46,989 bases of DNA, from assembly GCA_944322945.1 (NCBI GenBank), contig CALUQN010000020.1, positions 1 to 46,989 of the forward strand, in the 5' to 3' direction. The notes under the pieces were generated by a model, which saw only the letters and a program-made list of their open reading frames with translations, did not search any database and was not told where the DNA came from. Origin of the DNA: Candidatus Gastranaerophilales bacterium. GTDB taxonomy: Bacteria; Cyanobacteriota; Vampirovibrionia; Gastranaerophilales; Gastranaerophilaceae. Made by a program: the position numbers and the translations under genes. Each line of letters starts with the position of its first letter. Positions within the stretch are counted from its first letter, which is position 1. Shown here piece after piece: positions 7,577-34,231 of this stretch.

Positions 7577-8362
7577 CTATAAATCCATACTGCCTCTGCG
7601 GAGTCCCTCAATATCAAGAGTTATGTATCTAAACCCGATAGTCTTTAATTCTTTCGTTAATTTTTCACGCTGCGAAATAAAATCTTCAAACCTGTTTACA
7701 GGCAGTTCAATTCGTGCAACATCACCGTGGAGGCGAACGCGATTTTCAACAAAACCGGAACGCGCTAAAATATTTTCCGCTGATTTAACTTGTTCTATCA
7801 TACTGGTTGAAAGATGTGTGCCGTATGGAAATCTTGTTGCCAGACACGGTGTAGATGGTTTGTTATAAATTTCAAGCCCGATAGATTTAGCATAACTTCT
7901 TATTTCATCTTTTGTGATTTCAAATTTTGCAAACGGTGATATAATTCCTAGTTCTTCAATCGCCCTAAGCCCCGGACGGTATGTGTGCAGGTCATCGTAA
8001 TTTGTCCCGTCAATTATATTTTTGATATTGTGTGCAGAAGCATAATTTTTAATTTCTGTGAAAAACTTTTTCTTGCAATGGTAACATCTATCTTTCGGGT
8101 TGTTTGCAATAATTTCGTCATCCAGCATATTCAGCGAAATTACCACGTGTTTTATGCCGGCTTCTTCACAGAAATGTTGTGTAAATTCAATTTCTTCTTC
8201 GGTTTGAAACTCCGATACAAAAGTCAGAGCAGTTACGTTCAAATTATTGCACAGCCAAAGTAGCAGTGCACTATCTATGCCTCCTGAAAAAGCAAGGCAA
8301 ATACCTTGCTTTTCCAGAGTTGACAAATAATCTTTTAAACGCTCAAATTTATTATTTTTCAT
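7577..8362 (-). CDS. larE: LarE, sulfur insertase of nickel-pincer nucleotide synthesis
   Basis: An ATP-pyrophosphatase-type enzyme that adenylates the pyridinium dicarboxylate intermediate and inserts sulfur to make the pincer thiocarboxylates. The PP-loop is SGGIDS at residues 26-31. Three cysteines stand out: Cys93 and Cys96 (RCYHCKKKFF) and Cys173 (STPCLATRFPYG). Known LarEs are of two kinds: one sacrifices the single Cys at the position of Cys173, the other uses three Cys to hold a 4Fe-4S cluster that carries the sulfur. This sequence fits the cluster type (inference). It is the last gene of the minus-strand lar set, overlapping the transporter gene by 11 bp. 261 residues, typical. Confidence 0.92.
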   Translation of the reverse strand: MKNNKFERLKDYLSTLEKQGICLAFSGGIDSALLLWLCNNLNVTALTFVSEFQTEEEIEFTQHFCEEAGIKHVVISLNMLDDEIIANNPKDRCYHCKKKFFTEIKNYASAHNIKNIIDGTNYDDLHTYRPGLRAIEELGIISPFAKFEITKDEIRSYAKSIGLEIYNKPSTPCLATRFPYGTHLSTSMIEQVKSAENILARSGFVENRVRLHGDVARIELPVNRFEDFISQREKLTKELKTIGFRYITLDIEGLRRGSMDL

Positions 8363-9260
8363 AAGCTTCCGATTTTTTGTTTGTAAGAATTATGCAAGCC
8401 GCATACATAACTGCAGCAACAGCCAAAAGCCCTAAAATATTTGCGGGTATTGCAGGAATTTGTGAGAGAATTGCAGTTTTTGCCTGAATAATTTCCGACA
8501 AATTGTAGAAATATCCTTGGGTTTGCTCAACAAAAGATTCTGACATGTTAAGCAAAGACCACTCTAGTCCGTCAGGTTTTGTTGAGGCATATTGTGAAAT
8601 AAAACCTGCAAGAATTAAAGCCAATCCGCTTATACTATATGAAAACTTTTTAGATATCGCAGTCTTGTTGGCAATAACAATAACTGCCGCGGTAAAGATT
8701 CCTTCAATAATACCTATTGCAAAGTGGATGCTCTGCATAAGGCTTGCAAACATTGCAAAATTTGATGTAGAACCAGAAATAAAAGATTCAATAACAACAG
8801 CAATCGAGCCTAATTGTAATGCTGCAATTGATGCTAATATCGCGCCTGTGACAGGTCTTTTTCTGTCAGCAAGCGGTTTGTAAATAAGCGGGTAAGCCGC
8901 AAAACAAGCCAGTATGCCCATGTTGAAAATATTACATCCAAGCGCCATCAATCCGCCGTCAGCAAAGAATAATGCCTGCACAAGTAAAATTCCGCAAATC
9001 GCAAGAAATCCGGTGTAAGGCCCTAAAAGTGCCGCAAGTAAAACCGCACCTACAATGTGCCCGCTTGAGCCTGTTGTAGGAATTGAAAAATTAATCATCT
9101 GTAGTGCAAACACAAATGATGTGAGCGCCACTGCCGGCAATATGCTGTCTTTTGTAAAATCTTTTTTTGCTTTTTTAAACGCCCAAACTGCCATTGCTCC
9201 GGCTGCAACGAGCATCGGAATTCCGGTGACCGGACATATAATTGAATTTCCTAAGTGCAT
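8352..9260 (-). CDS. CbiM/NikM-type nickel transporter with C-terminal NikN domain (LarMN)
   Basis: A 302-residue ECF-type transport component whose N-terminal His2 (MHLGN) is the metal-binding residue of the CbiM/NikM family. Several membrane spans follow. The motif SIPTTGSSGHIVGA near residues 59-72 and the GGLMALGCNIFNMG segment match NikM. After residue 225 comes the NikN-like PDGLEW box and a last membrane span, so M and N parts are fused. The position between larC and larE strongly suggests nickel as substrate. No ATPase or T-subunit gene is adjacent, so those parts must be elsewhere or shared. AAGGAGG precedes the ATG. Confidence 0.9.
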   Translation of the reverse strand: MHLGNSIICPVTGIPMLVAAGAMAVWAFKKAKKDFTKDSILPAVALTSFVFALQMINFSIPTTGSSGHIVGAVLLAALLGPYTGFLAICGILLVQALFFADGGLMALGCNIFNMGILACFAAYPLIYKPLADRKRPVTGAILASIAALQLGSIAVVIESFISGSTSNFAMFASLMQSIHFAIGIIEGIFTAAVIVIANKTAISKKFSYSISGLALILAGFISQYASTKPDGLEWSLLNMSESFVEQTQGYFYNLSEIIQAKTAILSQIPAIPANILGLLAVAAVMYAACIILTNKKSEAYEK

Positions 9261-9278: not shown

Positions 9279-10037
9279 TTATTTTATTATCATTACTCTC
9301 AAAAATGGGTTTTCATATTTCCTTTTACCTGCTCCGTAGCCGATTTTTTCTATAACAAATTCCTCAGGCAGTTTTTCTCCTGTATAAAGTGCAGCAACGA
9401 TTGCCGCACCTGTCGGTGTAACCATTTCTCCGTCATTATCTGTAATTTTTAGCGGTAATTTATAAGCGGATGCTATCTCACAAACCGCAGGAACAGGAAC
9501 TGGAAGTTTTCCGTGCTGGCATGTTACAAATCCCTGCCCTTCTGTTAATGTTGAAAAATAAACCTTTTCCGGATTCAAATCATCAAACAAAACCGCAAAA
9601 CTCACGATGTCTGCGATTGAATCAATCGCGCCGACTTCATGAAAATGTACATCCTTGATATCTTTGCCGTGCACTTTGCTTTCTGCTTGCGCAACTATTT
9701 GGAATATTTTTTTTGCGAGAGTTTTTGCGCTCTCTGTTGTGTCAGCCCTGTCAATAATCTCATTTACATCATCAAGGTTTCTGTGCTCGTGGTGGTGATG
9801 TTCTGTACAATCGTGGTTATGATGGTGCTCGTGATGATGTTCAGGTAAAATTACATCAAAGTCAGTCGCTCTGATTGCATTTATATTAACCTCTGAAATT
9901 TTATAGGTGAATTCATTCTGTAAGTTCATTGATTGTAAGGCTTTATCAAGTTTTTCACGCGATGCCCCCAAATCCAACAGTGCCGCAACTGACATATCAC
10001 CGGAAATTCCTGACTTGCATTCAAAATATAAATTCAT
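9279..10037 (-). CDS. larC: LarC1-only nickel chelatase of pincer cofactor synthesis
   Basis: LarC inserts nickel into the pincer nucleotide. The 252-residue protein starts MNLYFECKSGISGDM, as in the family, has a His-rich metal loop (residues 67-85, with HHHEHHHNHD and EHHHHEH) and VHFHEVGAIDSIADI near 130. VTPTGAAIV follows in the last third. It stops after NPFLRVMIIK, the point where LarC1 ends and full-length proteins (about 400 residues) go on into the CTP-binding LarC2 domain. Only 18 bp separate its stop from the transporter ATG, so LarC2 is absent here rather than frameshifted. larB precedes it by 2 bp. Confidence 0.92.
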   Translation of the reverse strand: MNLYFECKSGISGDMSVAALLDLGASREKLDKALQSMNLQNEFTYKISEVNINAIRATDFDVILPEHHHEHHHNHDCTEHHHHEHRNLDDVNEIIDRADTTESAKTLAKKIFQIVAQAESKVHGKDIKDVHFHEVGAIDSIADIVSFAVLFDDLNPEKVYFSTLTEGQGFVTCQHGKLPVPVPAVCEIASAYKLPLKITDNDGEMVTPTGAAIVAALYTGEKLPEEFVIEKIGYGAGKRKYENPFLRVMIIK

Positions 10038-10039
10038 AA

Positions 10040-10723
10040 TTATTTCCCCTCAATTTTTCTGTTAATCTGATTTGCGCTGTACCCTGCGTTGAAACCATTA
10101 TCAATATTCACAACGGTTATTCCTTCGGCACAGGAATTCAGCATTGTAAGCAGTGCAGAAAGCCCGTTAAATGACGCGCCGTAGCCGACGGATGTCGGCA
10201 CAGCTATAACCGGAATATCCACAAGTCCTGCGATAATTCCGCCGAGCGCTCCCTCCATTCCTGCAACAGCTATTACAATATTTGCCTTTCTTATATCGTC
10301 AATTTTGTCGAACAATCTGTGGATTCCGGCAACACCTACATCGTAATACCTTTTTACTCTGCTTCCGTAAAATTCCGCAACAGCTGCAGCCTCCTCAGCA
10401 ACAGGTATATCCCCTGTTCCGCCTGTGCATATAGCGACCTCGCCAACCCGTTCAATTTTATTTTGTATTAAGGTGATGACCCTTGCTTTTTCATTATATT
10501 CAGCATCATTTATAACTTTATGCACAGCTTCATATTGTTCTTTGCTTGCGCGTGTGCCGATTACGTTTTGTCCGCTTGCTTTAAATTTTGAAAATATTTC
10601 AATCAGCTGTTCAGGCGTTTTGCATTCGCAAAAAACAGCTTCTGAAAAACCTCGTCTTTTTTGACGTTCGATATCTAACTTTGCAAAATCTATATCAATA
10701 TATTTATTACTCTCTTTTTCCAT
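10040..10723 (-). CDS. larB: LarB, nicotinate-adenine-dinucleotide carboxylase/hydrolase
   Basis: First enzyme of nickel-pincer nucleotide synthesis: carboxylates the pyridinium ring of NaAD and cleaves the phosphoanhydride. The 227-residue protein has the N-terminal FAKLDIERQKRRGFSEAVF segment and the PurE-like core with CTGGTGDIPVAEEAA, DVGVAGIHRL, GMEGALGG and PTSVGYGASF. Length is typical. The ATG has no convincing Shine-Dalgarno; a -10-like TAGGAT ends 6 nt before it, behind a 19-bp spacer and TTGACA (10755-10760). larB therefore probably starts its own regulated, leaderless transcript as well as receiving readthrough from tatC 53 bp upstream. Confidence 0.94.
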   Translation of the reverse strand: MEKESNKYIDIDFAKLDIERQKRRGFSEAVFCECKTPEQLIEIFSKFKASGQNVIGTRASKEQYEAVHKVINDAEYNEKARVITLIQNKIERVGEVAICTGGTGDIPVAEEAAAVAEFYGSRVKRYYDVGVAGIHRLFDKIDDIRKANIVIAVAGMEGALGGIIAGLVDIPVIAVPTSVGYGASFNGLSALLTMLNSCAEGITVVNIDNGFNAGYSANQINRKIEGK

Positions 10724-10776: not shown

Positions 10777-11493
10777 TTATTTGCACCCTCGTGAAAACAA
10801 AAGACCTAGTTCAAACAAAAGATAAGTCGGAGTGAACAAAAGAACCTGGCTCAATACATCAGGCGGTGTCAAAATTGCCGCAATTATCAATAAAATCACG
10901 ACAACATAAGGTCTTTTGTCACTTATTGTTTTATAATCAACTATCCCGTATTTGATTAGAGCATGTGTCAAAAGCGGCATCTGAAACATTAAACCGAATA
11001 CAACCGCCATCCACAAAGAAAGTGTAACTACATTTGAAATTCCAAATACTGCCTGAATGTTCGGAGTGGCAAAACTTATACCGAATTTTATTATCAAAGG
11101 CAAAATTACAAATACACAAAACGCAACCCCGAGATTAAACAAAAATGTCGACAAGAACACTATTGATTTGATGAATTTTCTTTCGTTATCGTAGAGTGCC
11201 GGTACTACAAAATCCCATATTTTTTTCATTATATACGGGAAGCAAATGATAATATCAATCACAACCGCAGTTTTAATCTGGATTATGAAAACTTCCGTAG
11301 GGGAAAAATAATTAAGCATAACATTGCTGTCCGCGATAATTATTTTTATAAGCCAGTCCAGAGCTTTAGGCGCCAGGAAAAGTGCAGGCAGCAACCCGAC
11401 TGCAAGTGATGTAAAACACCTGAGCAAAGTCTCCCGCAAAGCTTCCAGATGTGATATCAGAGTTTCGTTGTCTTGTTCTTCTTCCTTCTGCAT
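10777..11493 (-). CDS. tatC: Twin-arginine translocase subunit TatC
   Basis: The six-span membrane receptor that reads the twin-arginine signal of folded, often cofactor-bearing proteins. The 238-residue protein has the N-terminal ETLISHLEALRETLLRC (TatC signature HLxELR-like), FSPTEVFIIQIKTA after the first span, and the conserved periplasmic FVVPALYDNERKF segment. LTPPDVLSQ follows before the last spans. It lies 8 bp after tatA, and both lie directly downstream of two genes that carry twin-arginine motifs, so these are the likely local substrates. Confidence 0.95.
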   Translation of the reverse strand: MQKEEEQDNETLISHLEALRETLLRCFTSLAVGLLPALFLAPKALDWLIKIIIADSNVMLNYFSPTEVFIIQIKTAVVIDIIICFPYIMKKIWDFVVPALYDNERKFIKSIVFLSTFLFNLGVAFCVFVILPLIIKFGISFATPNIQAVFGISNVVTLSLWMAVVFGLMFQMPLLTHALIKYGIVDYKTISDKRPYVVVILLIIAAILTPPDVLSQVLLFTPTYLLFELGLLFSRGCK

Positions 11494-11501
11494 AAAATCC
11501 T

Positions 11502-11735
11502 CTATACCTGCGGATTTTTTATATCATCTTTAAGCTGATATTCCTGCGGTTTTTCAGCAGAATCCTCCAGTGCTTCTTTCAGGTCGTTAGCTTCTTTTTT
11601 GAATATTTCTTTTGCTTTTTTATATTCGTAAGATGCACGCCCGAATGCACGCGCAAGCTCAGGAATTCGTTTCCCTCCAAACAACAGAAGGGCTACGATT
11701 AAAATCAGCATAATTTCTGTTATACCAATGGACAT
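11502..11735 (-). CDS. tatA: Twin-arginine translocase subunit TatA
   Basis: Forms the transient protein-conducting assembly of the Tat system. The 77-residue protein has one N-terminal span (ITEIMLILIVALLLFG), the FGGKRIPELARAFGRA hinge and amphipathic helix, then a charged tail. No separate TatB is present, so this is a minimal TatA-TatC system of the kind found in many Gram-positive bacteria. It lies 25 bp after the polyferredoxin gene and has an AAGGAGA-type ribosome site. Confidence 0.94.
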   Translation of the reverse strand: MSIGITEIMLILIVALLLFGGKRIPELARAFGRASYEYKKAKEIFKKEANDLKEALEDSAEKPQEYQLKDDIKNPQV

Positions 11736-11760: not shown

Positions 11761-13041
11761 TTATATCATTTTTTGTTCTGTTACGGCAAATATATCAATG
11801 GCACCTGTCGGACAGGCGGCTTTACATTTTCCGCACCCTATACATTTCAGTCCGTTGAGACTTACGCTTCCGTCAGAAAGTCTTGTAATTGCACTTGCCG
11901 GGCATTCAAATGAACAAATTCCGCATTTGCTGCATTTTTCAGAATTTATTGCTGCCATTCCTATGCGTGTCTTTTGTTTTTCTTCAAGTGATATTTTCTT
12001 TATTGCGCCGGACGGGCAGACTTTTGAGCACTCATTGCAATCGTATTTGCAGAATTTTTCTCCTTTTGTATAGTCAATATGGACAGTCGGGAATTTTTCG
12101 TCTGCATTTGTGAGAATTTTATTCGGGCAGTTTTCAACACACAGGTTGCAGTTCAGACATTTGTTGAACATTCTGTTTTCGCTGACAGCACCGGGAGGCA
12201 GAATAATATCTCTGAATTTTTTCATTGTTTTATCTGCTATTTCAACCCCTGCTTTTAAAGCTCCGCCAAGCATTACAAACGCAGCTGTCGTCCAGATGAA
12301 ATTTCGTCTTCCTATGTTAAATTTCACCGGCACTTTGGGCGGTATGCCATAATGAACGCCACCTTTTTTGCATGCGCCAAGACACTTCAAACATTTTATA
12401 CAAGTTTCATTATCAACTAATTTTTCATCTTTATTTATGCAGCCTGACGGGCAGTTTTTTGCACACAAACCGCACGATACGCACATATCATTATCCAAAT
12501 ATATTTTGAATAATGAAAACTTTGAAATAAGTCCGAGTACTGCCCCTGCCGGGCAAATATTTGTACAGAAAAATCTGTTTTTGAAAAATACTATAGCAAG
12601 AACCGTTAAAGCTACGGTAATCCCGAAAACAGAACAGCTCACAGCTGAACCGAAAATTGTATAAGGATCAATATATCTGACCGCAATAGCAGAACCGCCT
12701 ATCAGTACCCCGAAAGTCAGCGCGGCTATAATGTATTTAAAGCCGAAACTTTTTTGCGGTTTATTTTCTTTTTTTCTGAACAAAATCGCTGCAAATTCCT
12801 GCAAAATTCCGAACGGACAAATCGTTGAACAGTATATCCGTCCGAATATAAGAGTAACTGCTATCACAATCAAAAATAATACCAGTGCAGCTAATGAAAA
12901 ATCACAAATTACTCTCCCTAGCAGTGGAGTGAACTGAACATCTAAAAACTTAACCGGATAAAATATGCCGCACACAGCAAGTATTGAAAGTAACAAAATA
13001 ATACCTGCAATAGTTAATCTTATATAATAAAATTTTTTCAT
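11761..13041 (-). CDS. Fused NapH-NapG-type membrane polyferredoxin
   Basis: A 426-residue membrane iron-sulfur protein. Residues 1-180 hold about four spans and the two CxxxCPxG boxes of NapH (CSTICPFG at 71, CTNICPAG at 159). Two cytoplasmic-type 4Fe-4S motifs follow (from Cys187 and Cys214). Then comes an internal twin-arginine segment, IGRRNFIWTTAAF (243-255), a hydrophobic stretch, and four more 4Fe-4S motifs (from Cys295, Cys331, Cys370 and Cys400). Two plus four clusters is what separate NapH and NapG carry, so this is a natural NapH-NapG fusion. NapGH oxidises quinol and passes electrons across the membrane. No NapA is present. The gene begins 2 bp after the aldo/keto reductase, its likely partner. 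Confidence 0.85.
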   Translation of the reverse strand: MKKFYYIRLTIAGIILLLSILAVCGIFYPVKFLDVQFTPLLGRVICDFSLAALVLFLIVIAVTLIFGRIYCSTICPFGILQEFAAILFRKKENKPQKSFGFKYIIAALTFGVLIGGSAIAVRYIDPYTIFGSAVSCSVFGITVALTVLAIVFFKNRFFCTNICPAGAVLGLISKFSLFKIYLDNDMCVSCGLCAKNCPSGCINKDEKLVDNETCIKCLKCLGACKKGGVHYGIPPKVPVKFNIGRRNFIWTTAAFVMLGGALKAGVEIADKTMKKFRDIILPPGAVSENRMFNKCLNCNLCVENCPNKILTNADEKFPTVHIDYTKGEKFCKYDCNECSKVCPSGAIKKISLEEKQKTRIGMAAINSEKCSKCGICSFECPASAITRLSDGSVSLNGLKCIGCGKCKAACPTGAIDIFAVTEQKMI

Positions 13042-13043
13042 AT

Positions 13044-14264
13044 TTAACCTAACGCTTTTACCTCTGAATCAATTTTCTTCAACAATTCAGGAATGTTCAG
13101 AGCCTGCGGGCAGTTTTTGTTGCACAAGCCGCAATGGATACATTTGTCAGCTTTTTCGCCATCATCCAGTGAATTATAATACATAGAAAACTGCATCTTG
13201 CTTCCCGAGACTTTGTATTGGTTATAAAGTGAAAAAATTGCTGGAATATTAATTTCGCGCGGGCAGACTTCCATACAGTACTTGCACGCTGTGCAATTGA
13301 TTTCCCCTTGTGATTGGATAATCTTTGCGATTTCATCAGCTGTTGCAATTTCTTTTTCATCCATATCTTTGTAATTTATAAAGGTTTGAATGTTTTCTTT
13401 AACTTGCTGGAGATTACTCATCCCGCTCAAAACCGTCACAACATTTTGTCTGCTGGCTGCCCATCTCAAACCGAATGCAGCAGGAGTTGTGTCAGGGTAA
13501 TTTTCTTTGAGTTTTGCCAGTGCCTTGTTGCTCAAATTAACCAGACCGCCGCCGCGCAAAGGTTCCATTACCGTGACGGGTATCCCTTTTGCCTGAACTA
13601 TATCATATTGTTCGTGGGCTTTTACCACATCCCAATCCAGATAATTTATCTGCAATTGTGCAAAATCCCATTTATGGTCTTTCACAACTTCTCTCAAAAT
13701 TTCAGGAGTTCCGTGGAATGAAAAACCGAGATATTTGAATTTTCCCTCTTGTTTCAACTTCAAAAGCTCTTCATACATCTCAACCTGTTTATAAGTATCA
13801 AAAGATGTCTTGTTAATATTATGCGCCATATAAAAATCAAAATGGTCAACCTGACATTTTTTCAACTGCTCATCAAATATTTTTCTGACATCTGCACGGC
13901 TGTTCATCTTATATATAGGACTTTTGTCTGCGAGGATAAAGTCTTCACGTTTGTATTTTTTTAGAACTTTACCAATAGCAATTTCGGATTTAGCATCAAC
14001 ATACATATATGCTGTGTCAAAATAATTTGCACCGTGCTGCATACAGTATTCAACCATTCTGTCTAATTCCATCATATCAATTTCATCGCCGCGCATAGGA
14101 AGACGCATACACCCTAAAGCAAGCAGCGGCACTTCTATATCTTTGTATTTTCTTCTGACTACCTGATTTTCAGAGCGGATTAATTTTTTTTCGCCGCATC
14201 CTGATAAAAGTGCTGCCCCGCCGACTGCAAGTGCTGAATTGATTATAAATTCTCTTCGTTTCAT
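13044..14264 (-). CDS. Tat-exported lipoprotein aldo/keto reductase with two 4Fe-4S clusters
   Basis: 406 residues from the ATG at 14264, chosen because AGAGGG lies 9 nt upstream and because it yields an exact Tat signal: MKRREFIINSALAVGGAALLSGC, with the twin arginine at 3-4 and a lipobox Cys23. A longer frame to 14393 would bury this signal. The reductase barrel carries the AKR tetrad Asp83, Tyr88, Lys114, His148. The C-terminus has two ferredoxin motifs, Cys324/327/330/334 and Cys375/378/381/385. Most AKRs use cytoplasmic NADPH, which is absent outside the membrane. The adjacent NapHG fusion could feed electrons instead (inference). Substrate unknown. Confidence 0.88.
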   Translation of the reverse strand: MKRREFIINSALAVGGAALLSGCGEKKLIRSENQVVRRKYKDIEVPLLALGCMRLPMRGDEIDMMELDRMVEYCMQHGANYFDTAYMYVDAKSEIAIGKVLKKYKREDFILADKSPIYKMNSRADVRKIFDEQLKKCQVDHFDFYMAHNINKTSFDTYKQVEMYEELLKLKQEGKFKYLGFSFHGTPEILREVVKDHKWDFAQLQINYLDWDVVKAHEQYDIVQAKGIPVTVMEPLRGGGLVNLSNKALAKLKENYPDTTPAAFGLRWAASRQNVVTVLSGMSNLQQVKENIQTFINYKDMDEKEIATADEIAKIIQSQGEINCTACKYCMEVCPREINIPAIFSLYNQYKVSGSKMQFSMYYNSLDDGEKADKCIHCGLCNKNCPQALNIPELLKKIDSEVKALG

Positions 14265-14276
14265 ATTTATTTTCCC

Positions 14277-14487
14277 TCTTTTTTCATCACTACTTCCTAA
14301 TATTCGCATGGTCGCTTTATTAGATTTTCGTATCCTTTCTCTGTCTTTTAGATGACGCTTTTTATCTGTCAATTCTTCTCTTTCTTTCATCACTACGTTC
14401 TAATATTCGTATTGCCGCTTTATTAGATTTTCGTATCCTTTTTTCTGTCTTTTAGATGACGCTTTTTATCTGTCAACTCTTCTCTTT
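14277..14487 (-). repeat. Two tandem ~104-bp copies in the leader of the reductase operon
   Basis: Two near-identical blocks repeat with a period of 103-104 bp; for example CATCACTAC occurs at 14285 and 14388, and GATGACGC at 14351 and 14455. They differ by a few substitutions and a one-base indel in an A-run. The copy nearest the gene is open in frame with it (charged, KEREELTDKKRHLK), but the distal copy is frameshifted, so the unit is more likely a DNA or RNA element than a protein. The gene's Shine-Dalgarno lies at the end of the proximal copy. Confidence 0.75.
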
Positions 14488-14501
14488 TTTAATACCATTA
14501 T

Positions 14502-14626: not shown

Positions 14627-17600
14627 CTAACCGGCAATCAACTGCAATTTTGAGCCGGTAACGACTTCTTTATTTTGTTGATAACGATTAGGAACAAGCG
14701 CTTTGTTCACTCTGCCGGTAAATGACGGAGCATGTGTCAGCACAAGAGTTGCATCTTTAAGTTCAATCGGCAAATCCTGATTAGGCTCATCCGGGTTATC
14801 TTTGTTTACGCGTTTGATAAAGTAGTTGTTATTAAATTCTCTGACAACATACTCATCATCACCGTTTCTTGCATCAATAAATTTTGTTCCCGGCTGTATA
14901 CCAAAATTCAAACCGACATCGTCATGGTATTCACCTAAATCTTTACCCAAACCTATTGAATCTAACGTAAGATGTGCTGGTTTGTAAGGAACATTCGGAT
15001 CACGTGTCATGCCGGTCGGATTTAACAATGTAACCGCCATTGCGCCGTCGCTGCTCTGTCTGAAAAATGCAGTAATAGGACAGTTTTTGGATTCTTCATC
15101 GCCTCTTGGATATTGAAGTTTGAGTACAATCGGAGCACCGTCATTCAGTGCGTGGTTTTCATATTTTGTTCTAATACCCATTTCTTTATCAATTCTTTGC
15201 TTGCCTTCAACAATAAATTGTTTCTTTTCAGGGCTATTAGGGTCTGCCCATTCATTATGCAGGTAGCCGCGATTTTGGAGATAAATATTTTTTGTTTTTG
15301 TTTCATAACCAGTTGAAGCGAGTTCATCACCGGCATAAAGCGTCGGGATACCTACAATTGCATTCAGATATTGCATCATACCTTCAAGTTTTGTGTATGC
15401 CGGGCCTATAATAATATCAAAGGCTCTGTTTTCATAATCTCTTCTGTCTTCTTTTGAAAGTTTAAGACCATGTTCACTTTCTGCCTGATTTAGAGCTATA
15501 TTTATCAGCCAGTGGATTTCTTTTGTACCTAAGGCGTCATTTTCAAAAGTCTTCTTGAGGTAAGAGCCTTTAGCAAGATCCTGCAAAGTCGCACCAACTA
15601 TTTCAAATATTCTTGTGTGATTTTCGTTTGTGAATGCTGGTCTGTTTTCGGCTGCCAGTGAATTCAATCCGTCAATCAAACCGCGTCTCAGCATTTCGGC
15701 TGCAGCTATGGCTTTTGGACTGTACAAACTGAAATCATACTTACTAGCATTTTCACTTACCTGTCTGATTGTTTCTTCTTTAAAATCGTGTTGATTTTCC
15801 AGCACACGGTATGCTCGTTCTCTCAAATCGGGAGCAGAGTAATCATTCAGGTTAGCATAGAACATGCGCATGTCCATTGACAAACATTGCAGAATTCTCG
15901 GCTTATCGTGGTTCCCGATAAAGTTGTAGGAAAATAACAATGATTCGTACGGCATTGCTTTTAAATAATTATTGAACATTCCGGGCTGTATAAATTTATC
16001 ATAAATTTTTCTTCCGATAACTGCAGGATTTGTGTCAATCTTGCTCTGTCCGTCTTCGGTATTTTGTCCGAATATGTCAGATATAGTTGAAAATATGTAT
16101 GAGTAATTTGCAAGTGAAGTTACACCTGTTTCTCTCAAAAATTTCATGTCAATAGATTCTTTGTTTGTCTCATTGAATTTGTCATTAGGATTTGAATATC
16201 TTTTAGAAATCCATCCGCCTGCCTGATCAAATAAGTCAGTCTCATCTGTGACTTCAGCAACCATATACGCATTCGGATTTTCTTCCAATACGCCCTGCGC
16301 AAATTTGCCCCAGAAATCTATGATTTTGTCCCAAGTGTACTCAAAATCGGTGTTGTGATCCTTCAGTGCATCAATATCAGCGATATCTTTTGTTGCGTCG
16401 ATTCTCCAGTTTAGACCGTTACCGGTTCTGTCTACAATCATTTCTGCAAGTTTAAAGCTGTTTTCATTTGTACCTTCAAGCATTTTTAACAAACCGTCTA
16501 CCAAAATCTTTTTGTCATGTTTGTTTATATTTTTTACGCCTGACTTGATTTTATTGATAATATGAACAGCTTCTTCTTCAGGTCCGCCTTCTTTTATTTT
16601 GAGTTTGTTAAGACTTACTTTCTTTAATTCATCGTAGTCATACAAAATTTCGCCCGTCTCTTCATCATATTTTACATCAGCACGGGGCTCTAAACTCTTT
16701 ATAACCGCAAATTTTACAATTTCATTTGCAAGATAAGGAAGTGCATACTTGCCGTAAGGTGTTGTGTCTCTATAAATATTCATCAGCGAACGTTTCGGAC
16801 CGAGCTGCTGGTTTACGGAGGTAAGAATATCCATTGCAAAATTGTTTATTGCTCCATCCTGCAAAAACAGCTTGTTAGTCTGCTCGTAAGTGGTTCTGTA
16901 TTTGTCCGGAATTGTGCTGTCGTGCTCCTGATAAATTTCTGAACGGGTTTTGCCTACATCATCTTCTGAGGTCGCACGCTTTGAAATATAGGGGGAAGCA
17001 AGTACACCTACAACGTCGTTTCCGAATTCAATTGATTCAAGCGGAACATCCATCATGCTGAATTCAAGCTGAGTCATAAAATTTTCACTTGACAATGGTT
17101 TGAGATTGTAATCGCCATTCAAAACATTTTCAACCATTTCCGGGGTAATTTTACGTTTGAGATTTTGTGGGAATATACCGTCATCAATGTTTTTCAATAT
17201 CTGATTGTAAACTTCACCCGGGTTTGAAGCATCAGGAGTTTTTAAATGCTGCGCAACCTGAAGATTCATAATTTGACTGGTTTGTTTTGTCCAGAACTTT
17301 GCTGCCGAAAGAATATAGTCTTGAACTTCACTGTTTTTTCTTTCAATATGTCTGAAAAATGCTCTTCTTGCTTCATCAGTTTCCAGGTTAAAAGCCTCTT
17401 CCGTATCAGCATTTGAAGAAATAAAGTTCAATTTTGCGATATCAGGGTTGGCGTCCCAAGTCTTAAAGCCGCCTTCAAACTTTTCATCTATATACAGATT
17501 GCCGAGTTTAGTCAGAAATCTTGTACCAAGATATGAATCCATCATTATTTGCTTATCTTTAGGCTGTGAACTGTTGTATTCATTCAATCTGTCTATATTT

Positions 17601-18856
17601 TTCTCGTAAACCTTAGGGTCAAATACCATGAATGGATACGGAACAACAGTATCGTTATGGTTGTTTATTTCAAGCGGGTTATCAGTGTTTGGCTTAATAT
17701 ATGTTGTGATTAGTTTTGTAGTATCTTTCTTCTCTCTTTCCGCAACAAGTCTTGTATCAAAAATCTGCACATAAGTTGGTTTTCTTTTATCGTAATTCGG
17801 ATTAGCAATTTTTTCGATATTGCCATTCATTTTTTGTTTATATGCAATCGGGCTGTTTACGATTTTGTGTGAGATAAAACTGTGATTTTTCCCGAAAACA
17901 CCTGCCGTCAAGTGTCCGCTTTTTAGTCCGCCGGCAGTAATCCAGTCATTTGCGTACGATTCATCTTCCCATTTTAAAAGATGCTGGAAGTGCACACCCA
18001 GCAAACCTTCATTTACAAAAGCAGCGTCTGTGATAAACTGCTTGTCTTTTGCAAACATTTTTTTAACAAATTTTCTGTAATGGCTGATATTTCCCAAATT
18101 CGGTGAAATCTGATAGCAGTTTTCGCTCCAATAACCGTGCCCGCCCATTGTTGCCGACATAAACCAAGGCAGTGTAATCAGATAATCGTAATTATCAAAA
18201 TCACCTTCATCAAGCCCTTTTACAACCCCGGCAATAGTTCCGCCCATTACTGTTGTAATGTTTGGAATTGTATTTTTTGCACGGTTTTTAATTTCTGTAT
18301 TTTCTTTAATCTGACCGTTTCTGTCAAAGTAGACACCAGGTTTGTAAGTATCTGTTGCAAATAATTTTGCGGAACCGCCGCGGAAGTTGTTTGTGCCGTT
18401 TTGGTTTAATATGTTATAGACAGCTTCCGGCTTATCTTTTGTTCTTTCGTCGATAATTATGCCGGAATCAACCTTGTATACAACATTATTCGGGTCATTT
18501 TTGTTAATACCTTTGTAGTGATACGCAATCGGTTTTGACATATCAGTAATGCCAAAGTCTGCGGCTAAGTTTACTTTGTTAACTTTATTCGGCTCTAACT
18601 TTTTCCCGTTAGGATTTTTTGCTTCAGGATTGTTTTTATCAAAATATCCAAGACTGCTGCCATCACCTACGTAATAGTTTTTGGCATCATCCGTGAATGC
18701 TTCGTACATTTCAAGATAACAATCGTACTTGTTGCTGTCAAACGGATAATAAAATTCATAAATCTTATAGCCCTTTTCATCTTTTGCTGGGGTATAACCT
18801 TTGAATGCCACACTCTTATTTTGATTTAGCCCAATATTGTTTAAATTAACTTTCAC
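14627..18856 (-). CDS. Giant GH13 (alpha-amylase superfamily)-like protein
   Basis: 1409 residues from the GTG at 18856, chosen because AAGGAG lies 6 nt upstream; an ATG 24 bp earlier has no ribosome site. Alpha-amylase family regions appear in order: WRIDATKD with nucleophile Asp820, MVAEVTDE with acid Glu868, FIGNHDKPR with Asp984, then IPTLYAGDELA near 1178. Region I is not clear. The first 600 residues match nothing I recognise. There is no signal peptide, so it is probably cytoplasmic and could act on stored glucan. It begins MKVNLNNIG and has VAFKGY near residue 20. It is two to three times the usual GH13 length. It stands alone, divergent from ahcY. Confidence 0.7.
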   Translation of the reverse strand: MKVNLNNIGLNQNKSVAFKGYTPAKDEKGYKIYEFYYPFDSNKYDCYLEMYEAFTDDAKNYYVGDGSSLGYFDKNNPEAKNPNGKKLEPNKVNKVNLAADFGITDMSKPIAYHYKGINKNDPNNVVYKVDSGIIIDERTKDKPEAVYNILNQNGTNNFRGGSAKLFATDTYKPGVYFDRNGQIKENTEIKNRAKNTIPNITTVMGGTIAGVVKGLDEGDFDNYDYLITLPWFMSATMGGHGYWSENCYQISPNLGNISHYRKFVKKMFAKDKQFITDAAFVNEGLLGVHFQHLLKWEDESYANDWITAGGLKSGHLTAGVFGKNHSFISHKIVNSPIAYKQKMNGNIEKIANPNYDKRKPTYVQIFDTRLVAEREKKDTTKLITTYIKPNTDNPLEINNHNDTVVPYPFMVFDPKVYEKNIDRLNEYNSSQPKDKQIMMDSYLGTRFLTKLGNLYIDEKFEGGFKTWDANPDIAKLNFISSNADTEEAFNLETDEARRAFFRHIERKNSEVQDYILSAAKFWTKQTSQIMNLQVAQHLKTPDASNPGEVYNQILKNIDDGIFPQNLKRKITPEMVENVLNGDYNLKPLSSENFMTQLEFSMMDVPLESIEFGNDVVGVLASPYISKRATSEDDVGKTRSEIYQEHDSTIPDKYRTTYEQTNKLFLQDGAINNFAMDILTSVNQQLGPKRSLMNIYRDTTPYGKYALPYLANEIVKFAVIKSLEPRADVKYDEETGEILYDYDELKKVSLNKLKIKEGGPEEEAVHIINKIKSGVKNINKHDKKILVDGLLKMLEGTNENSFKLAEMIVDRTGNGLNWRIDATKDIADIDALKDHNTDFEYTWDKIIDFWGKFAQGVLEENPNAYMVAEVTDETDLFDQAGGWISKRYSNPNDKFNETNKESIDMKFLRETGVTSLANYSYIFSTISDIFGQNTEDGQSKIDTNPAVIGRKIYDKFIQPGMFNNYLKAMPYESLLFSYNFIGNHDKPRILQCLSMDMRMFYANLNDYSAPDLRERAYRVLENQHDFKEETIRQVSENASKYDFSLYSPKAIAAAEMLRRGLIDGLNSLAAENRPAFTNENHTRIFEIVGATLQDLAKGSYLKKTFENDALGTKEIHWLINIALNQAESEHGLKLSKEDRRDYENRAFDIIIGPAYTKLEGMMQYLNAIVGIPTLYAGDELASTGYETKTKNIYLQNRGYLHNEWADPNSPEKKQFIVEGKQRIDKEMGIRTKYENHALNDGAPIVLKLQYPRGDEESKNCPITAFFRQSSDGAMAVTLLNPTGMTRDPNVPYKPAHLTLDSIGLGKDLGEYHDDVGLNFGIQPGTKFIDARNGDDEYVVREFNNNYFIKRVNKDNPDEPNQDLPIELKDATLVLTHAPSFTGRVNKALVPNRYQQNKEVVTGSKLQLIAG

Positions 18857-18961
18857 ACGAGACTCCTTACATACGTACATGCCATATAAGTTTCCTGAAT
18901 ATTCTTTTTTGCCAAAAACGACTTATACTTTTAACAAATTTTAACATAAAAATACTTTTTT

Positions 18962-26506: not shown

Positions 26507-28216
26507 ATGTCTACAAGTATAGATTATTTTGATTATATACGAATAAGTATAGCTTCACCGGAAAGGATTCTAAAGTGGTCTTACGGGGAAGTAACAAAAC
26601 CGGAAACAATCAACTACCGTACATTAAAACCTGAAAGAGACGGTTTGTTCTGCGAAAGAATTTTCGGACCGTCAAAAGACTGGGAATGCTATTGCGGTAA
26701 GTATAAAAGAGTCCGCCACAAAGGTATTATCTGCGAACGCTGCGGTGTAGAAGTTACAGATTCAAAAGTGCGCCGTCACAGAATGGGTCACATCAAACTC
26801 GCAGCACCTGTATCACACATCTGGTTTCTGAAAGGAATTCCGTCATATCTCGGTTTGTTATTGGATATGACATTGAAAGATTTGGAACAGGTAATCTACT
26901 TCAACAATTATGTAGTTCTTGATCCGGCAGACAGCCCGTTCAAGAAACTGCAATTGCTCGGCGAAGAAGAATATGAAGACTTTATGGCAGAAAACGAAGA
27001 TTCCGAACTTAAAGTCGGCATCGGTGCAGAAGCTATTAAAGAACTTCTTATGGAATTAAATATTAAAGAACTCGCAGAAGAAATCAGAACAGAACTTGCA
27101 GGCTCTGTAACTTCTGTTCAAAGAAAAAGCAAACTCATCAAACGCTTGAGACTGCTTGATTCACTGATATCTTCAGAAACAGAACCGTCCTGGATGATAA
27201 TGGATGTATTACCTGTTACACCTCCGGATTTAAGACCGATGGTACAATTGGACGGCGGACGTTTTGCAACCTCTGACCTTAACGATTTATATAGACGTGT
27301 TATCAACAGAAACAACCGTCTCCAAAGACTTTTGGAAATGGGTGCACCTGAAATCATCGTAAGAAACGAAAAACGTATGCTTCAGGAAGCTGTAGATGCT
27401 CTTATTGATAACGGCAGACGCGGCAGAACTGTTGTAGGTCCGAATAACAGAGCGTTAAAATCATTATCAAATATTATCGAAGGTAAACAAGGTCGTTTCC
27501 GTCAAAACCTCCTCGGTAAACGTGTTGACTACTCCGGTCGTTCAGTTATCGTTGTAGGTCCGCAATTGAGCCTTAACCAGTGCGGTTTGCCGAAAGAAAT
27601 GGCTATTGAATTGTTTAAACCATTCGTTGTTAACAAACTGATTGAAAGAGGTTACGTTCAAAACATTAAATCAGCCAAAAAGAAAATTGAACGCTCCGAA
27701 GCAATCGTCTGGGATATATTAGAAGAGGTAATCGACGGACATCCGGTACTTCTGAACCGTGCTCCGACCCTCCACAGATTGGGTATTCAGGCATTTGAAC
27801 CTAAACTTGTTGAAGGTCGTGCAATTCAGCTTCACCCGCTCGTATGTACAGCGTTCAACGCAGACTTCGACGGTGACCAAATGGCTGTTCACGTACCGCT
27901 TTCTATCGAAGCTCAAACCGAAGCAAGAATGCTTATGTTAGCAACTAATAACATCCTTGCTCCTGCTAACGGAAAACCTATTATTACACCGTCACAGGAT
28001 ATGGTTTTGGGTATGTATTACCTGACAATTCTGAAAGATCCGACACAAGAGCCGAAAGGTTACTTCTATAACTTCCAGGATGCAATTGCAGCCCTTGAAG
28101 TCGGAATTATCAGTTTGCACGACAAAATTATTGTAAGAAATGAAAACGGCGAAAGATTTGAAACTACTGTTGGTAGAATTATCTTTAACGAAACCGTTAG
28201 AAATGCTCTTGCATAA
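26507..28216 (+). CDS. rpoC1: DNA-directed RNA polymerase subunit gamma (RpoC1)
   Basis: The N-terminal part of the split beta-prime subunit, 569 residues. It has the first zinc ribbon ([20 protein letters not shown]), the clamp and lid region, and the catalytic NADFDGDQ at residues 451-458 that holds the active-site magnesium. It ends shortly after, at the point where cyanobacterial RpoC is broken. The split is a lineage marker for Cyanobacteria and their non-photosynthetic relatives and for plastids. A stop and a separate ribosome site before rpoC2 show that this is a true gene split, not a sequencing error. Cyanobacterial homologues are somewhat longer (about 620 residues). Confidence 0.97.
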
Positions 28217-28255
28217 TCAGTAAATTTTTGAAAATTAAAATTGAGGAAAAATAGA

Positions 28256-31200
28256 ATGGATACAACATACGCACATGTTAAAAAAGAACCGGAATTCATC
28301 AACAAACAGATGGACAAGAAAGCTTTGAATAACCTTCTTGCACAGATGTATTTGGAATACGGCGGTGCAAAAACAGCCGAATTAGCCAATGCCTTGAAGA
28401 ACCTCGGTTATAAATATGCTACAAAATCCGGAACAACAATATCAATTGCAGACCTGCAAGTTCCGGCAGCAAAAAAAGAGCTGCTTAATGAAGCGGAAAA
28501 AGAAATTGAAAAATCAACAAACAGATACTTGAAAGGTGAAATTACAGAGGTAGAAAGATACACAAAAGTTATCGACACCTGGTCTGAAACCACAGCAAAA
28601 TTGACAGCACAGGTTGTCGAAAACTTTGATAAATTAAACCCTGTATATATGATGGCATTCTCCGGAGCGAGAGGTAACGTATCACAGGTATCACAATTGG
28701 TAGGTATGAGAGGCTTGATGGCAGACGCACAAGGTCAAATCATCGACTTGCCGATTAAATCCAACTTTAAAGAAGGTTTATCAGTTACCGAATACATTAT
28801 TTCTTCATACGGTGCACGTAAAGGTCTTGTAGATACAGCGTTGAAAACAGCTGACTCCGGGTACCTGACAAGACGTCTTGTTGACGTTGCGCAAGATGTA
28901 ATTATCCGTGCTGATGACTGCCATACTACAAAATGTATTAACATGAAAGCTATCACTGACGGTGATGCGGTTATTGTTCCGTTAATCGACAGATTACTCG
29001 GCAGAACTGTTGCACAGGATATCGTTGATACAGACGGCACACTTCTTGTCAAAAACGGAACTACGATGAACCGTGATGACATCAAGAAAATTGCGCACCT
29101 TAACTTGCAGGAACTGAAAGTTCGCTCAGGCTTAACCTGCGGTCTGGAATACGGTATCTGCCAAAAATGCTACGGCTGGGCAATGACAACACAAAAACTT
29201 GTTGATGTCGGCGAAGCTATCGGTATTATCGCAGCACAGTCAATCGGTGAACCGGGTACACAGCTTACAATGAGAACATTCCACACCGGCGGTGTATTCA
29301 AAGGTTCAGGTGCAATGAAAACCGTTGAGGCTAAAATTGCAGGTGAAGTTGTTTCTAACGTTAAAACCCGTGAACTCAGAACCCGTCACGGTGATATAGT
29401 TAATGTTGCAAACTACGAAGCTGATATTGAAGTTAAAGGCGAAAAAAGAACTGAAAAATATCATATTCCGGCAGGCTCTACCGTATTCTTTACAAACGGC
29501 ATGAAAGTAGCAAAAGGTTTTAAACTCGCTGAATACGAACCGGTATCTCAGGGTGACGGTTCACGTTTGACCGAAAAAGCTACAAAAGATATTACGTCTG
29601 ACCTTAGCGGAGAAGTTCTTTTTGAAGACTTTATAGCTGATGAAAAGAAAGACAGACAAGGTAACATCTCAAGAACAACTAATAAACAAGGTATTATCTG
29701 GGTCCTCGGCGGCGATGTATACAACCTTCCGGGCGGCTCAAAAGTTCTTGTTAAAGACGGTCAAAAAATCAAATCAGGCGAAAAACTTGCTGAAACACTT
29801 ACAATAAGTGAACACGGCGGTGAAGTTCGTTTTGGTGAAGACCTTGTTATTGAAGATGTCAACTTTGAAGGCAAAAAAATAAAGAAAATTGTTCAAGGTA
29901 AAGAAATTACTATCGTAATTGCTTCACTGATGCCTGAAAATGCTTCATTTGAACAAACTAAAAAAGAACAAATCTGGACAGTTAATAAAACAGGCGAAAA
30001 ATATATCGTAAAAGCTCCGGTTGACACAACAGTTGAAAACGGTATGATTATCGCTGAACTTATTGATGACGAATGTGCAGTTACATCATCAGGCGAAATC
30101 AGATATGTTGATGTTGAAGTTGACGAAAATCAAATCATCACAAAACCTGGTACTGTAGTATTTATTCCGGAAGAAATTCACCAAATTTCAAAAGACAGTT
30201 CTTTGAAAATGGTTGAAAACGGAACATTAGTTACAGCAGGTACTGAAATCGTAAAAGACGTATACTGCCACATTGACGGTATTGTTGAATTTAAAGAATA
30301 CAACGATATTATCCACGAAATTACAGTTCGCCCGGGTGAAGTTCATACACTTTCCAGCGTTTCTGAATTGAAAGTTGACGAAGGCGAAGTTGTAAAAAAA
30401 GGCACAGTTATTGCTGACGGTATTACAGCAAAAGAAACCTCTATTGTTACAATCATGGATTCTGCAATGGATGATTTGGATATTGATGATTTGGATGAAG
30501 AAATTGATTCAAGTCTTTCACTTGATGAAGATAACATTGCAAACCAGCCTATCCAAATTCTTATCAGACCTGTTCAGGTATTGGATGTTCAACAGAAAGA
30601 TGTTTCAATCAAATTCAACACAACTGATAACTTGATTGACATTGTACCTGTAACTCAACTTCAATACAAAGATGGTGCAAGAGTAAGAAACCTTGACGGT
30701 TCAACAATCACAAGAACAAGCCTTGTCCTTCAAATGCAAGGATACCTCTCTCACTTGAAAGGTATGGTAGAAATAGATGACAAAGGCAACTTGAGAATAG
30801 TCGTTCTTGAAAACCTGATTGTCCGCCGTGAATTTGAAGGTAATTCAAAATTGCTTTCATCATTGCAAACAGAATTGCTTGTAAAAGACGGTCAGACAAT
30901 TGATCCGAAAACACCTGTTGCAAAAACACAAGTTCTTGCTATCAACAACGGTGTAGCTTCAATCAAGGATGAAAATGAAGAAACAAGACGTTTGCTTTTG
31001 ACAAGCGCTAATTACGAAGAAAAAATCGCAGTAAGCGGCAAAGCAACAGTTAAAAAAGGCGATTTTGTAAAACTTGATGCTGAAATTGCAGAAAGCGGCG
31101 AAAAATCAACTGTTTCAGGTATGGTAATATCAGTTAACAAGGGCGAAGTTACAATTAGAACAGGTCGTCCGTACCTTATCAGCCCCGGTACAATGCTTCA

Positions 31201-32107
31201 GGTAAATGCAGGAGCATTGGTACTCAGAGGTGATATCATCGCAACACTGGTATTTGAAAGACAAAAAACAGGTGATATCGTTCAGGGTCTTCCGAGAGTA
31301 GAAGAGTTGCTTGAAGGCAGAAAGCCGAAAGATTGTGCTATATTGGCAGAAGAAGACGGCGTTGCTGAAATTGAAACTGATGAAGATCTTCCGAGACTCT
31401 ATCTTGTAAACGAAAACGGAAGAACAGAAATCAAATACGCAATTGACGCAAACATTGTTGTTCACAACAAACAAGAAATCAAAAAAGGTCAACCGTTAAC
31501 CAGCGGTCCTTTGAACCCGCATGATGTTATAAGACTTTGCGGACCGGAAGCTGCACAGCAGTATCTTGTAGACGAAGTTCAGCGTGTATACCGTTCACAA
31601 GGTGTAGAAATTGCTGATAAGCACGTTGAAATCATCGTCCGTCAGATGACTAAAAAAGTTAAAATTGTTGACGCCGGTGATACAAAACTTCTTCCGGGTG
31701 AACTTGTAGAAATGCAGATTTTCGAAAGAGAAAATAAGGAAGCCGAAGAAAATGGCGGACAACCTGCAACTTGTGAATATATGCTGTTAGGTATTACAAA
31801 AGCATCTTTGAACACAGATAGCTTTATCTCAGCAGCATCATTCCAGGAAACAACAAGAATCCTGACAGAAGCAGCTGTGGACGGAAAACGTGATATGCTC
31901 CGCGGATTAAAAGAAAACGTTATTATCGGACGTTTAATCCCGGCAGGTACCGGTTTCCATCATCTTTCCAACGCGAACGAAGAAAAAGAACGCGAAGAAA
32001 GAAAACGTGCAGTTGCACAAAGAAATCAGGCAAGAAAACCGTCTGCAATTTTGGAAGAAATTGAAGGCATGTTCGGCGCTCCTGATTTCAATATTGATGA
32101 AGAATAA
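28256..32107 (+). CDS. rpoC2: DNA-directed RNA polymerase subunit beta-prime C-terminal part (RpoC2)
   Basis: 1283 residues from the ATG at 28256, set by GAGGAAA 8-14 nt upstream; an earlier in-frame TTG overlaps that site. It carries the second zinc site (DDCHTTKC and [14 protein letters not shown]) and the bridge-helix/trigger-loop segment [23 protein letters not shown] long beta-rich insertion (roughly residues 360-1010) interrupts the trigger loop, the SI3 insertion of the cyanobacterial line, before [17 protein letters not shown] resumes the conserved core. It ends in an acidic tail. Without SI3 the protein would be about half this size. It is the last gene of the operon; a terminator follows within 25 bp. 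Confidence 0.97.
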
Positions 32108-33032: not shown

Positions 33033-33122
33033 GTAATTCGGCTATCAAAATAGCAGCCATGTAGAGTTATAAAAAATTCCTTTTTATTGTATTATGACGA
33101 TATAATCAAAAAGGAGTTTTTT

Positions 33123-33521
33123 ATGAAAAAAAATATTATTACGATTTTACTGATTTTAATTGTCCCTATGTTTGCGTATTGGATTTTAAGCACAAATGAC
33201 GCAGCAAAATCTTCAACTGTTGCGGTTGCGAGCACAAGCACAAAACCGCAGATAATTAAATTTACCTCAGAAATGTGTATGGACTGCCAGACAATGAATC
33301 AAATTATGAAAGAAATTTTTCCGGCATACAAAGACAAAATTACCCTGATTGAAATTCCTGTTCAGGACAAATCCTCATTCAATCAATCACAGATAAAGAA
33401 ATACAATGTAACACTTGTGCCGACAATCATCCTGATAGATTCAAACGGAAAACAGGTCAAAAGAATTGAAGGTGCAATAGAAAAAGACGTTATGGAATCA
33501 TATTTGCAAGGGTTAAATTAA
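33123..33521 (+). CDS. Membrane-anchored thioredoxin-like protein
   Basis: 132 residues from the ATG at 33123, which has AAGGAG 6 nt upstream. Residues 1-22 form a membrane anchor or signal (MKKNIITILLILIVPMFAYW). The thioredoxin fold follows with an active site CMDC (Cys52, Cys55) in FTSEMCMDCQTMNQ and the cis-Pro loop LVPTIILID near residue 100. Its stop overlaps the ATG of ccdA by 1 nt. The pair is a standard route for passing reducing power from the cytoplasm to the periplasmic side, for example to keep apo-cytochrome or other exported cysteines reduced. The target is unknown; no cytochrome genes are near. Confidence 0.88.
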   Translation: MKKNIITILLILIVPMFAYWILSTNDAAKSSTVAVASTSTKPQIIKFTSEMCMDCQTMNQIMKEIFPAYKDKITLIEIPVQDKSSFNQSQIKKYNVTLVPTIILIDSNGKQVKRIEGAIEKDVMESYLQGLN

Positions 33522-34231
33522 TGCAAAATTACGTTGAATTATTTACATCACAGGGAAACATTGTATTATTATTCTGGCTATCATTTTTAGGCGGGCTGAT
33601 AGCGTCGATTTCACCGTGTTCGCTTGCAATGCTGCCTATGATAATCGGCTATATCGGCGGGTATTCAAATGAAAAACCTGCAAGAACGCTTGTACAATTA
33701 ATATTTTTTGTTCTCGGGACAGCAATAGTATTTACTGCGATTGGCATAATCTGTGCGATTACCGGCAAAGTTTTTGTGTCCTTTGCGGGCGGATATTTCG
33801 GATTATTTATTGCAGCGATTGTGATGATAATGGGCTTGAAACTTGTCGGGGTTTTGGACTTTGAACTTCCTGTAGTGATAAAGGAAATTCCGCAGAATAA
33901 AGCACAGAGCATATATTTGTATCCAATACTATTGGGGGCTGTGTTTGCGCTTGCCGGCACGCCTTGTTCAACTCCGATTTTGGCGGCGATAATGGCGTTT
34001 GCGTCATTATCTGCAAGTTTGATGCAGGCTGTAGTTATGTTGTTTTTGTTTGCAATTGGTCAGGGCTTGATTTTAATTGTAGCCGGATTTTTGACTTCTC
34101 GTCTCAAAAACTGGAAAGGGTTTTATAAGTTTTCTGATGTATTGCTAAAAATAAGCGGGGTACTTCTTATACTTGCCGCATTGTATATATATTACAAAAT
34201 TTTCGCTCCGTTTGTGATGAAATTATTGTAG
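33521..34231 (+). CDS. ccdA: CcdA-type thiol-disulfide transmembrane transporter
   Basis: 236 residues, about six membrane spans. The two redox cysteines lie in SISPCSLAMLP (Cys33) and AGTPCSTPIL (Cys149), the paired motifs of the DsbD-beta/CcdA family. It moves electrons from cytoplasmic thioredoxin to exported thiol proteins. Overlap with the preceding anchored thioredoxin gene shows translational coupling and names its partner. Length is typical (220-240). Confidence 0.92.
   Translation: MQNYVELFTSQGNIVLLFWLSFLGGLIASISPCSLAMLPMIIGYIGGYSNEKPARTLVQLIFFVLGTAIVFTAIGIICAITGKVFVSFAGGYFGLFIAAIVMIMGLKLVGVLDFELPVVIKEIPQNKAQSIYLYPILLGAVFALAGTPCSTPILAAIMAFASLSASLMQAVVMLFLFAIGQGLILIVAGFLTSRLKNWKGFYKFSDVLLKISGVLLILAALYIYYKIFAPFVMKLL

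Follow-up and report, generated by a model that had tools for sequence, protein, structure and literature searches.

A putatively exported iron-sulphur aldo/keto reductase shares an operon with a NapH-NapG fusion, Tat genes and nickel-pincer cofactor genes in Gastranaerophilales

What does an aldo/keto reductase (AKR) with an export signal and iron-sulphur clusters do beside a NapH-NapG fusion (NapHG), and which electrons does it use? The question is raised by an operon in contig CALUQN010000020.1 of a Candidatus Gastranaerophilales bacterium, of which we analysed a stretch of 46,989 nucleotides (the window). The original prediction held that quinol may drive the AKR through NapHG, within what could be a self-contained export and redox unit. 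From the genes and their order, their signals and cluster motifs, and the way in which the set is strictly inherited and lost together, we arrive at a reading to which we give an even chance, namely that the operon encodes an exported oxidoreductase that is wired through the membrane, has its own Tat system and uses a Lar-made cofactor.

All eight genes lie on the minus strand in the order AKR, NapHG, tatA, tatC, larB, larC1, cbiM and larE, with the 3' limit at position 7577 (Table 1). NapHG follows the AKR gene after 2 bp, and tatA and tatC come directly afterwards, as anticipated, with gaps of 25 and 8 bp. The larB gene then begins 53 bp beyond tatC, larC1 follows after 2 bp and cbiM after another 18 bp, and larE overlaps cbiM by 11 bp. 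The predicted self-contained unit is therefore borne out for AKR-NapHG-tatA-tatC but not for its end at tatC, as larB, larC1, cbiM and larE continue. Pfam and NCBIfam models identify both TatA and TatC, a minimal TatAC system, and there is no tatB gene within the operon; the same models detect neither napA nor any nap gene besides the fusion among the eight genes. No Rfam family matched in the window, and promoter matches there showed no excess over shuffled sequence.

Table 1. Positions of the operon genes, the adjoining repeat and the DUF362 genes of related loci
Feature	Position	Strand	Evidence or remark
Tat-exported lipoprotein AKR (type 1), two C-terminal [4Fe-4S] motifs	13044..14264	-	PF00248 149 bits + Fer4; motif, lipobox
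NapH-NapG fusion (polyferredoxin)	11761..13041	-	NCBIfam NapH E 4e-26, NapG E 3e-13
tatA	11502..11735	-	PF02416 51.5 bits, above cut-off
tatC	10777..11493	-	TIGR00945 above cut-off
larB, pyridinium carboxylase/hydrolase of nickel-pincer nucleotide (NPN) synthesis	10040..10723	-	NF033503 295 bits, cut-off 175
larC, LarC1 domain only	9279..10037	-	TIGR00299 201 bits, cut-off 90
CbiM/NikM-type Ni/Co permease with PDGLE domain	8352..9260	-	PF01891 160 bits, PF13190 38 bits
larE sulfur insertase	7577..8362	-	TIGR00268 282 bits, cut-off 150
Tandem direct repeat, period ~103 bp, 2 copies, 90-94% identical	14279..14490		Directly upstream of AKR gene
Tat-exported DUF362 near NapHG	L117:193-1179; L128:2961-3959; L135:7003-7977; L144:6997-7929; L159:6488-7288		LarA His/Lys/His pattern

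The AKR comprises 406 amino acids counted from the Tat ATG, which we took as its start; the start at 14393 in the open reading frame list is merely the first in-frame start codon. At base level, its N-terminus, MKRREFIINSALAVGGAALLSGC, has the expected twin arginine and lipobox, and its C-terminal region the two expected cluster motifs, C324-x2-C-x2-C-x3-C and C375-x2-C-x2-C-x3-C. The protein has the TIM barrel, D-Y-K-H tetrad and predicted NAD(P) loop that define the AKR superfamily. Since the tetrad (D83, Y88, K114 and H148) and the usual cofactor loop (LSGM...N291) are conserved, and the AF2 model is an ordinary AKR barrel (pLDDT 86.6), the enzyme likely performs hydride chemistry on a carbonyl or alcohol. 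It has no flavin domain that would couple its one-electron clusters with hydride.

The original prediction had further argued that the AKR may be quinol-driven because it has no NADPH outside the membrane. This does not follow, since Tat exports folded proteins with their cofactor bound, and the AKR tetrad and loop are intact. Their retention, together with the fact that the solved AKRs closest to the model (AKR11C1, Z 29.8, and L-galactose dehydrogenase, Z 28.9) are NAD(P)-bound, speaks for a different explanation, in which the AKR acquires NAD(P)(H) before it is exported and keeps it tightly bound, after the model of glucose-fructose oxidoreductase, and the lar genes merely hitch-hike for an unlinked enzyme. 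We regard this as somewhat unlikely, for reasons of gene distribution given below.

Iron-sulphur AKRs also occur as cytosolic homologues. Those of Monoglobus (H3) and of cyanobacteria share with the window AKR an invariant S182/H184 and the LSGM loop, and Monoglobus H3 additionally has the same barrel and two C-terminal 4Fe-4S motifs. Unlike the window AKR, the Monoglobus copy lacks a Tat signal, a lipobox and an adjoining NapHG, and alignments to the cyanobacterial matches start downstream of the signal region of the window protein. Among AKRs that adjoin NapHG, 48/51 have a twin-arginine signal. The type-1 AKR, the form found in the window, retains an ordinary cofactor loop, and a set of His, Lys or Cys residues peculiar to lar-linked AKRs is not seen in it. 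Two residues that looked lar-linked, N149 and Q287, were rejected; since the cytosolic Monoglobus AKR has both, they are probably ancestral.

NapHG (426 amino acids) likewise has the layout that had been predicted. Four strong membrane spans (9-27, 48-66, 103-121 and 134-152), two CxxxCP motifs and two 4Fe-4S clusters (at 187 and 214) correspond to NapH, and a twin arginine (RR245-246), followed by a weakly hydrophobic span and four clusters (at 295, 331, 370 and 400), corresponds to NapG; the NapH match, at 92 bits, is under the NCBIfam equivalog cut-off of 234 bits. All six cluster motifs, both CxxxCP motifs and the RR are invariant from Gastranaerophilales to Bacteroides at 30-35% identity, and in the NapG part RR245-246 and 16 cysteines are unchanged across phyla. 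Because of this invariance, and because AKR, NapHG and TatC occur together throughout the order (see below), the AKR/NapHG motif set is, judged from the sequences, not chance.

A NapH-NapG fusion with an internal Tat motif is already known as the 'MLMS-1 polyferredoxin', and the insertion of a fusion with this layout requires first Sec and then Tat (Tooke 2017, PMC5449189). The window protein resembles MLMS-1 and NapGH in its NapH spans, CxxxCP motifs, cytoplasmic-side clusters and four outer clusters, and resembles MLMS-1 in the internal twin arginine before TMD5 (PMC5449189). MLMS-1 was described with seven clusters (three plus four), whereas the window NapHG has two plus four, and NapGH is partnered by nitrate reductase, whereas the partner here is the AKR. 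The fusion itself is thus not new; the novelty lies in how closely it is tied to an orphan nickel-pincer pathway and, at related loci, to a DUF362 protein with the LarA fold.

We then surveyed 146 genomes of Gastranaerophilales, basing all counts on the full-length AKR. This was present in 49/146 genomes, with NapHG in 49/49 and TatC in 49/49, mostly in one operon, although the counts are not phylogenetically independent and Fisher values overstate the association. The result supports the prediction that the AKR is exported, connected to a conduit of the NapHG type and served by Tat genes of its own. AKR homologues standing widely apart from NapHG or Tat genes, which the original prediction had named as evidence against itself, were not seen in the order (0/49 without NapHG, 0/49 without TatC), and other phyla have the pair as well. 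In two cases NapHG lacked a full AKR, both times with AKR fragments, and in five cases TatC did so, of which two come from genomes where there are remnants or contig ends.

The AKRs of the order fall into two types, type 1 being 60-100% identical to the window AKR and type 2 about 45%. Type 1 is accompanied by a LarC1-only LarC in 39/40 genomes, the sole exception ending at a contig edge, and type 2 forms an AKR-NapHG-TatA-TatC unit in which LarC was found in 0/9. The eight-gene order is identical in other genera and other families of the order (L062, L066, L067 and L070). Many relatives have none of the genes or only broken AKR pieces, indicating frequent loss of the operon as a unit; its decay is repeated across the order, for example in G055, G091, G086, G112, G069 and G070, from which TatC is also absent. 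A single inherited operon with frequent loss would give the same co-occurrence table. In one genome (G119), a type-1 AKR and CbiM lie on one contig and a diverged AKR heads a NapHG-Tat-lar operon on another (L077:4794-6941, L076:4932-11076).

As for the electron donor, MenD and MqnA/D were not found in the window's genome (2.12 Mb, 98.6% complete) by searches whose controls were positive, and gut Melainabacteria have been described as having neither quinones nor respiratory chains (PMC3787301). Home-made menaquinol is therefore an unlikely donor, and the original proposal of a quinol drive through NapHG loses much of its force. In its fullest form, that proposal has menaquinol oxidised by NapHG to drive carbonyl reduction by the AKR, with the lar genes unrelated. 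NapGH is indeed a known quinol dehydrogenase (PMC5449189), the same pair occurs in Bacteroidales, and the genome encodes a MenA-like prenyltransferase that could use a salvaged precursor. A salvaged quinone could also still serve as the donor. However, no menaquinone pathway was found alongside the window NapHG, and the MenA-like gene is present in 143/146 genomes, equally with or without the AKR; UbiA, being nearly universal, is uninformative as a quinone marker. On this evidence we consider a menaquinol-driven AKR quite improbable. Elsewhere in the window (33087-34231), a thioredoxin-like protein whose N-terminus is a signal or anchor is followed by a DsbD/CcdA-like membrane protein, a pair that is a possible second electron route outward.

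The remaining genes of the operon concern the cofactor. LarB and LarE score above their family cut-offs, and LarE has three cysteines (CxxC plus C) that, judged by eye, resemble those of the 4Fe-4S type. LarC is shortened: PF01969 aligns only to model positions 1-234 of 375, no LarC2 model matched the window larC, and a second PF01969 match is absent from the genome. CTP-dependent nickel insertion is placed in LarC2. Since LarC2 is missing, these genes would make either a nickel-pincer-type cofactor or a variant of it, which is the least certain step of our reading. LarB, LarC1 and LarE are shared with larABC1C2E of L. plantarum, and the window operon has a CbiM-type Ni/Co permease alongside them; in contrast to L. 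plantarum it has neither LarA nor LarC2, and its lar genes stand behind an export and redox unit.

A PF09861 search for a hidden LarA found none in the window's genome and none above cut-off in 146/146 genomes, and the same search was positive in two control genomes. The situation is not confined to this order: larB, larE and larC occur in the absence of larA in ~15% of surveyed genomes, for which there is no known enzyme that uses the cofactor (PMC11796402). The DUF362 proteins discussed below were also ruled out as the user in the window's genome, since it has none. These two absences deprive hitch-hiking lar genes of an evident unlinked enzyme to serve, and lar genes were kept without a full type-1 AKR in only 2/106 genomes, one with DUF362 beside larE and the other with a broken larB. 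That NapHG-lar linkage recurs in other phyla also argues against hitch-hiking, while the type-2 units without lar argue for it.

A scan across phyla identified NapHG in Gastranaerophilales and Bacteroidales, in gut Alphaproteobacteria, and in Endomicrobium, Victivallales and others. The named close relatives of the locus belong to Candidatus Gastranaerophilales, with which the split rpoC of the window (see below) agrees. NapHG-AKR pairs were also found in Bacteroidales, Endomicrobium, Victivallales and gut Alphaproteobacteria. Four alphaproteobacterial loci (L107, L117, L127 and L130) combine NapHG-TatA-TatC with AKR, LarB, LarC and LarE in differing gene orders. Their NapHG sequences form one well-supported clade with those of type 1, so the lar-NapHG linkage of the two groups may have a single origin. 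In Competibacteraceae (L159), a Tat-DUF362 gene is separated by a single unrelated gene from NapHG, after which comes a complete LarC; because this NapHG is a distant branch on the other side of the tree, the arrangement suggests a second origin. LarC is complete (LarC1 plus LarC2) in both Alphaproteobacteria and Competibacter, unlike in the window. In Bacteroidales the paired AKR has a Tat signal and lipobox, and there were no lar genes near the pairs, either in the loci seen or in a plasmid search. Since neither type-2 nor Bacteroidales loci have adjacent lar genes, the AKR-NapHG core works without them, which counts against the cofactor step, as do the ordinary cofactor loop of the type-1 AKR and the missing LarC2. 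An exported flavodoxin, which may carry electrons at the outer face, recurs alongside several NapHG units (L068, L078, L098, L107 and L130). In Alphaproteobacteria, larE is followed by a membrane protein with a GPDHYLPF motif (L127:15335-16018, L107:6603-7346), perhaps a nickel transporter replacing CbiM; the L127 copy had no Pfam match.

Several NapHG genes adjoin a Tat-exported DUF362 protein that replaces or accompanies the AKR. In the AF2 model of the L117 protein (pLDDT 74), every match at E<=0.001 was LarA or LarA-like, with Z 14.2-15.8 for LarA-type folds, whereas the next fold reached 5.1. The spacing of the conserved H, K, G and H residues is that of His174, Lys184, Gly189 and His200 of L. 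plantarum LarA, in which we take His174 to be catalytic, Lys184 to carry the cofactor and His200 to be a Ni ligand; one LarA homologue examined has a differing His-Lys spacing, so the spacing is not universal. By sequence alone the DUF362-LarA profile match is weak (7.5% probability, P 0.005), with the right block aligned. DUF362 (PF04015) belongs to the same Pfam clan as LarA (PMC11770544). On the strength of fold and residues, the Tat-exported DUF362 proteins are candidate NPN enzymes that share the LarA fold and His174/Lys184/His200 pattern and pair with NapHG in other bacteria. Within the order, a short DUF362 occurs in 10 genomes, all of them LarC1-positive (p about 1e-6, uncorrected for phylogeny), and in G112 (L192:1369-2226) and G048 (L201) a short, cytoplasmic-looking DUF362 lies at the larE end of the lar genes. 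'Long' DUF362 proteins were not enriched with lar (p = 1). DUF362 was also rejected as a general answer for LarC genomes that lack LarA, as the control genomes were mixed: 2/4 LarC-positive, LarA-negative genomes had DUF362, and one DUF362-positive control had no LarC.

In the membrane-wired oxidoreductase that we favour, TatAC would bring the AKR lipoprotein, already folded, and the cluster-bearing C-terminal domain of NapHG across to the outer face, and these two proteins would be the main reason why the fermenters of this order retain Tat. NapHG would conduct electrons between its cytoplasmic-side dicluster and the four outer clusters, which would pass them to the two clusters of the AKR, with the feed coming from the cytoplasmic side, for example from reduced ferredoxin, rather than from home-made menaquinol. 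Outside the membrane, the AKR barrel would then convert a carbonyl or alcohol by hydride chemistry, most likely in the direction of reduction as an electron sink. The opposite direction, in which the AKR oxidises a sugar or alcohol at the outer face and feeds the electrons inward through NapHG, is in our judgement unlikely. It fits the L-galactose dehydrogenases among the closest solved folds, but a common AKR fold is uninformative on direction, and extra reducing power would be of little gain to an obligate fermenter.

LarB, LarC1, LarE and the Ni/Co permease would supply the type-1 unit with the pyridinium cofactor, or variant, that it needs. In related units the cofactor would reside in the LarA-fold DUF362 protein paired with NapHG; in the window's genome, where both LarA and DUF362 are missing, the AKR or some other partner may hold it. 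A metal-pincer hydride could provide the gate between one- and two-electron transfer that a flavin-free AKR with iron-sulphur clusters does not have, and the flavodoxin of some loci could fill the same gap. More broadly, NapHG may wire up exported enzymes whose net redox chemistry uses the Lar-made cofactor, DUF362 in one branch and the type-1 AKR, or the AKR-NapHG complex, in that of the window, with the cofactor or a LarC2-free variant; we advance this tentatively and think it fairly unlikely. If true, a metal hydride would be a one-to-two-electron gate, and NPN users beyond LarA would be available for some of the genomes, ~15% of those surveyed, that carry larBCE and lack larA (PMC11796402). 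The operon thereby names concrete candidates for the missing cofactor user, the exported iron-sulphur AKR and the sister-locus LarA-fold DUF362. It would also illustrate a way in which bacteria that have been described as fermenters free of quinones may export electrons, and Tat in this order would have one clear main set of clients that is inherited with it.

Two further features of the window lie outside the operon. A 1417-amino-acid protein (14627-18880) is alpha-amylase-like by eye and had no Pfam match at E<=1e-5, and rpoC is split into rpoC1 and rpoC2 (26507-32107), as is typical of cyanobacteria.
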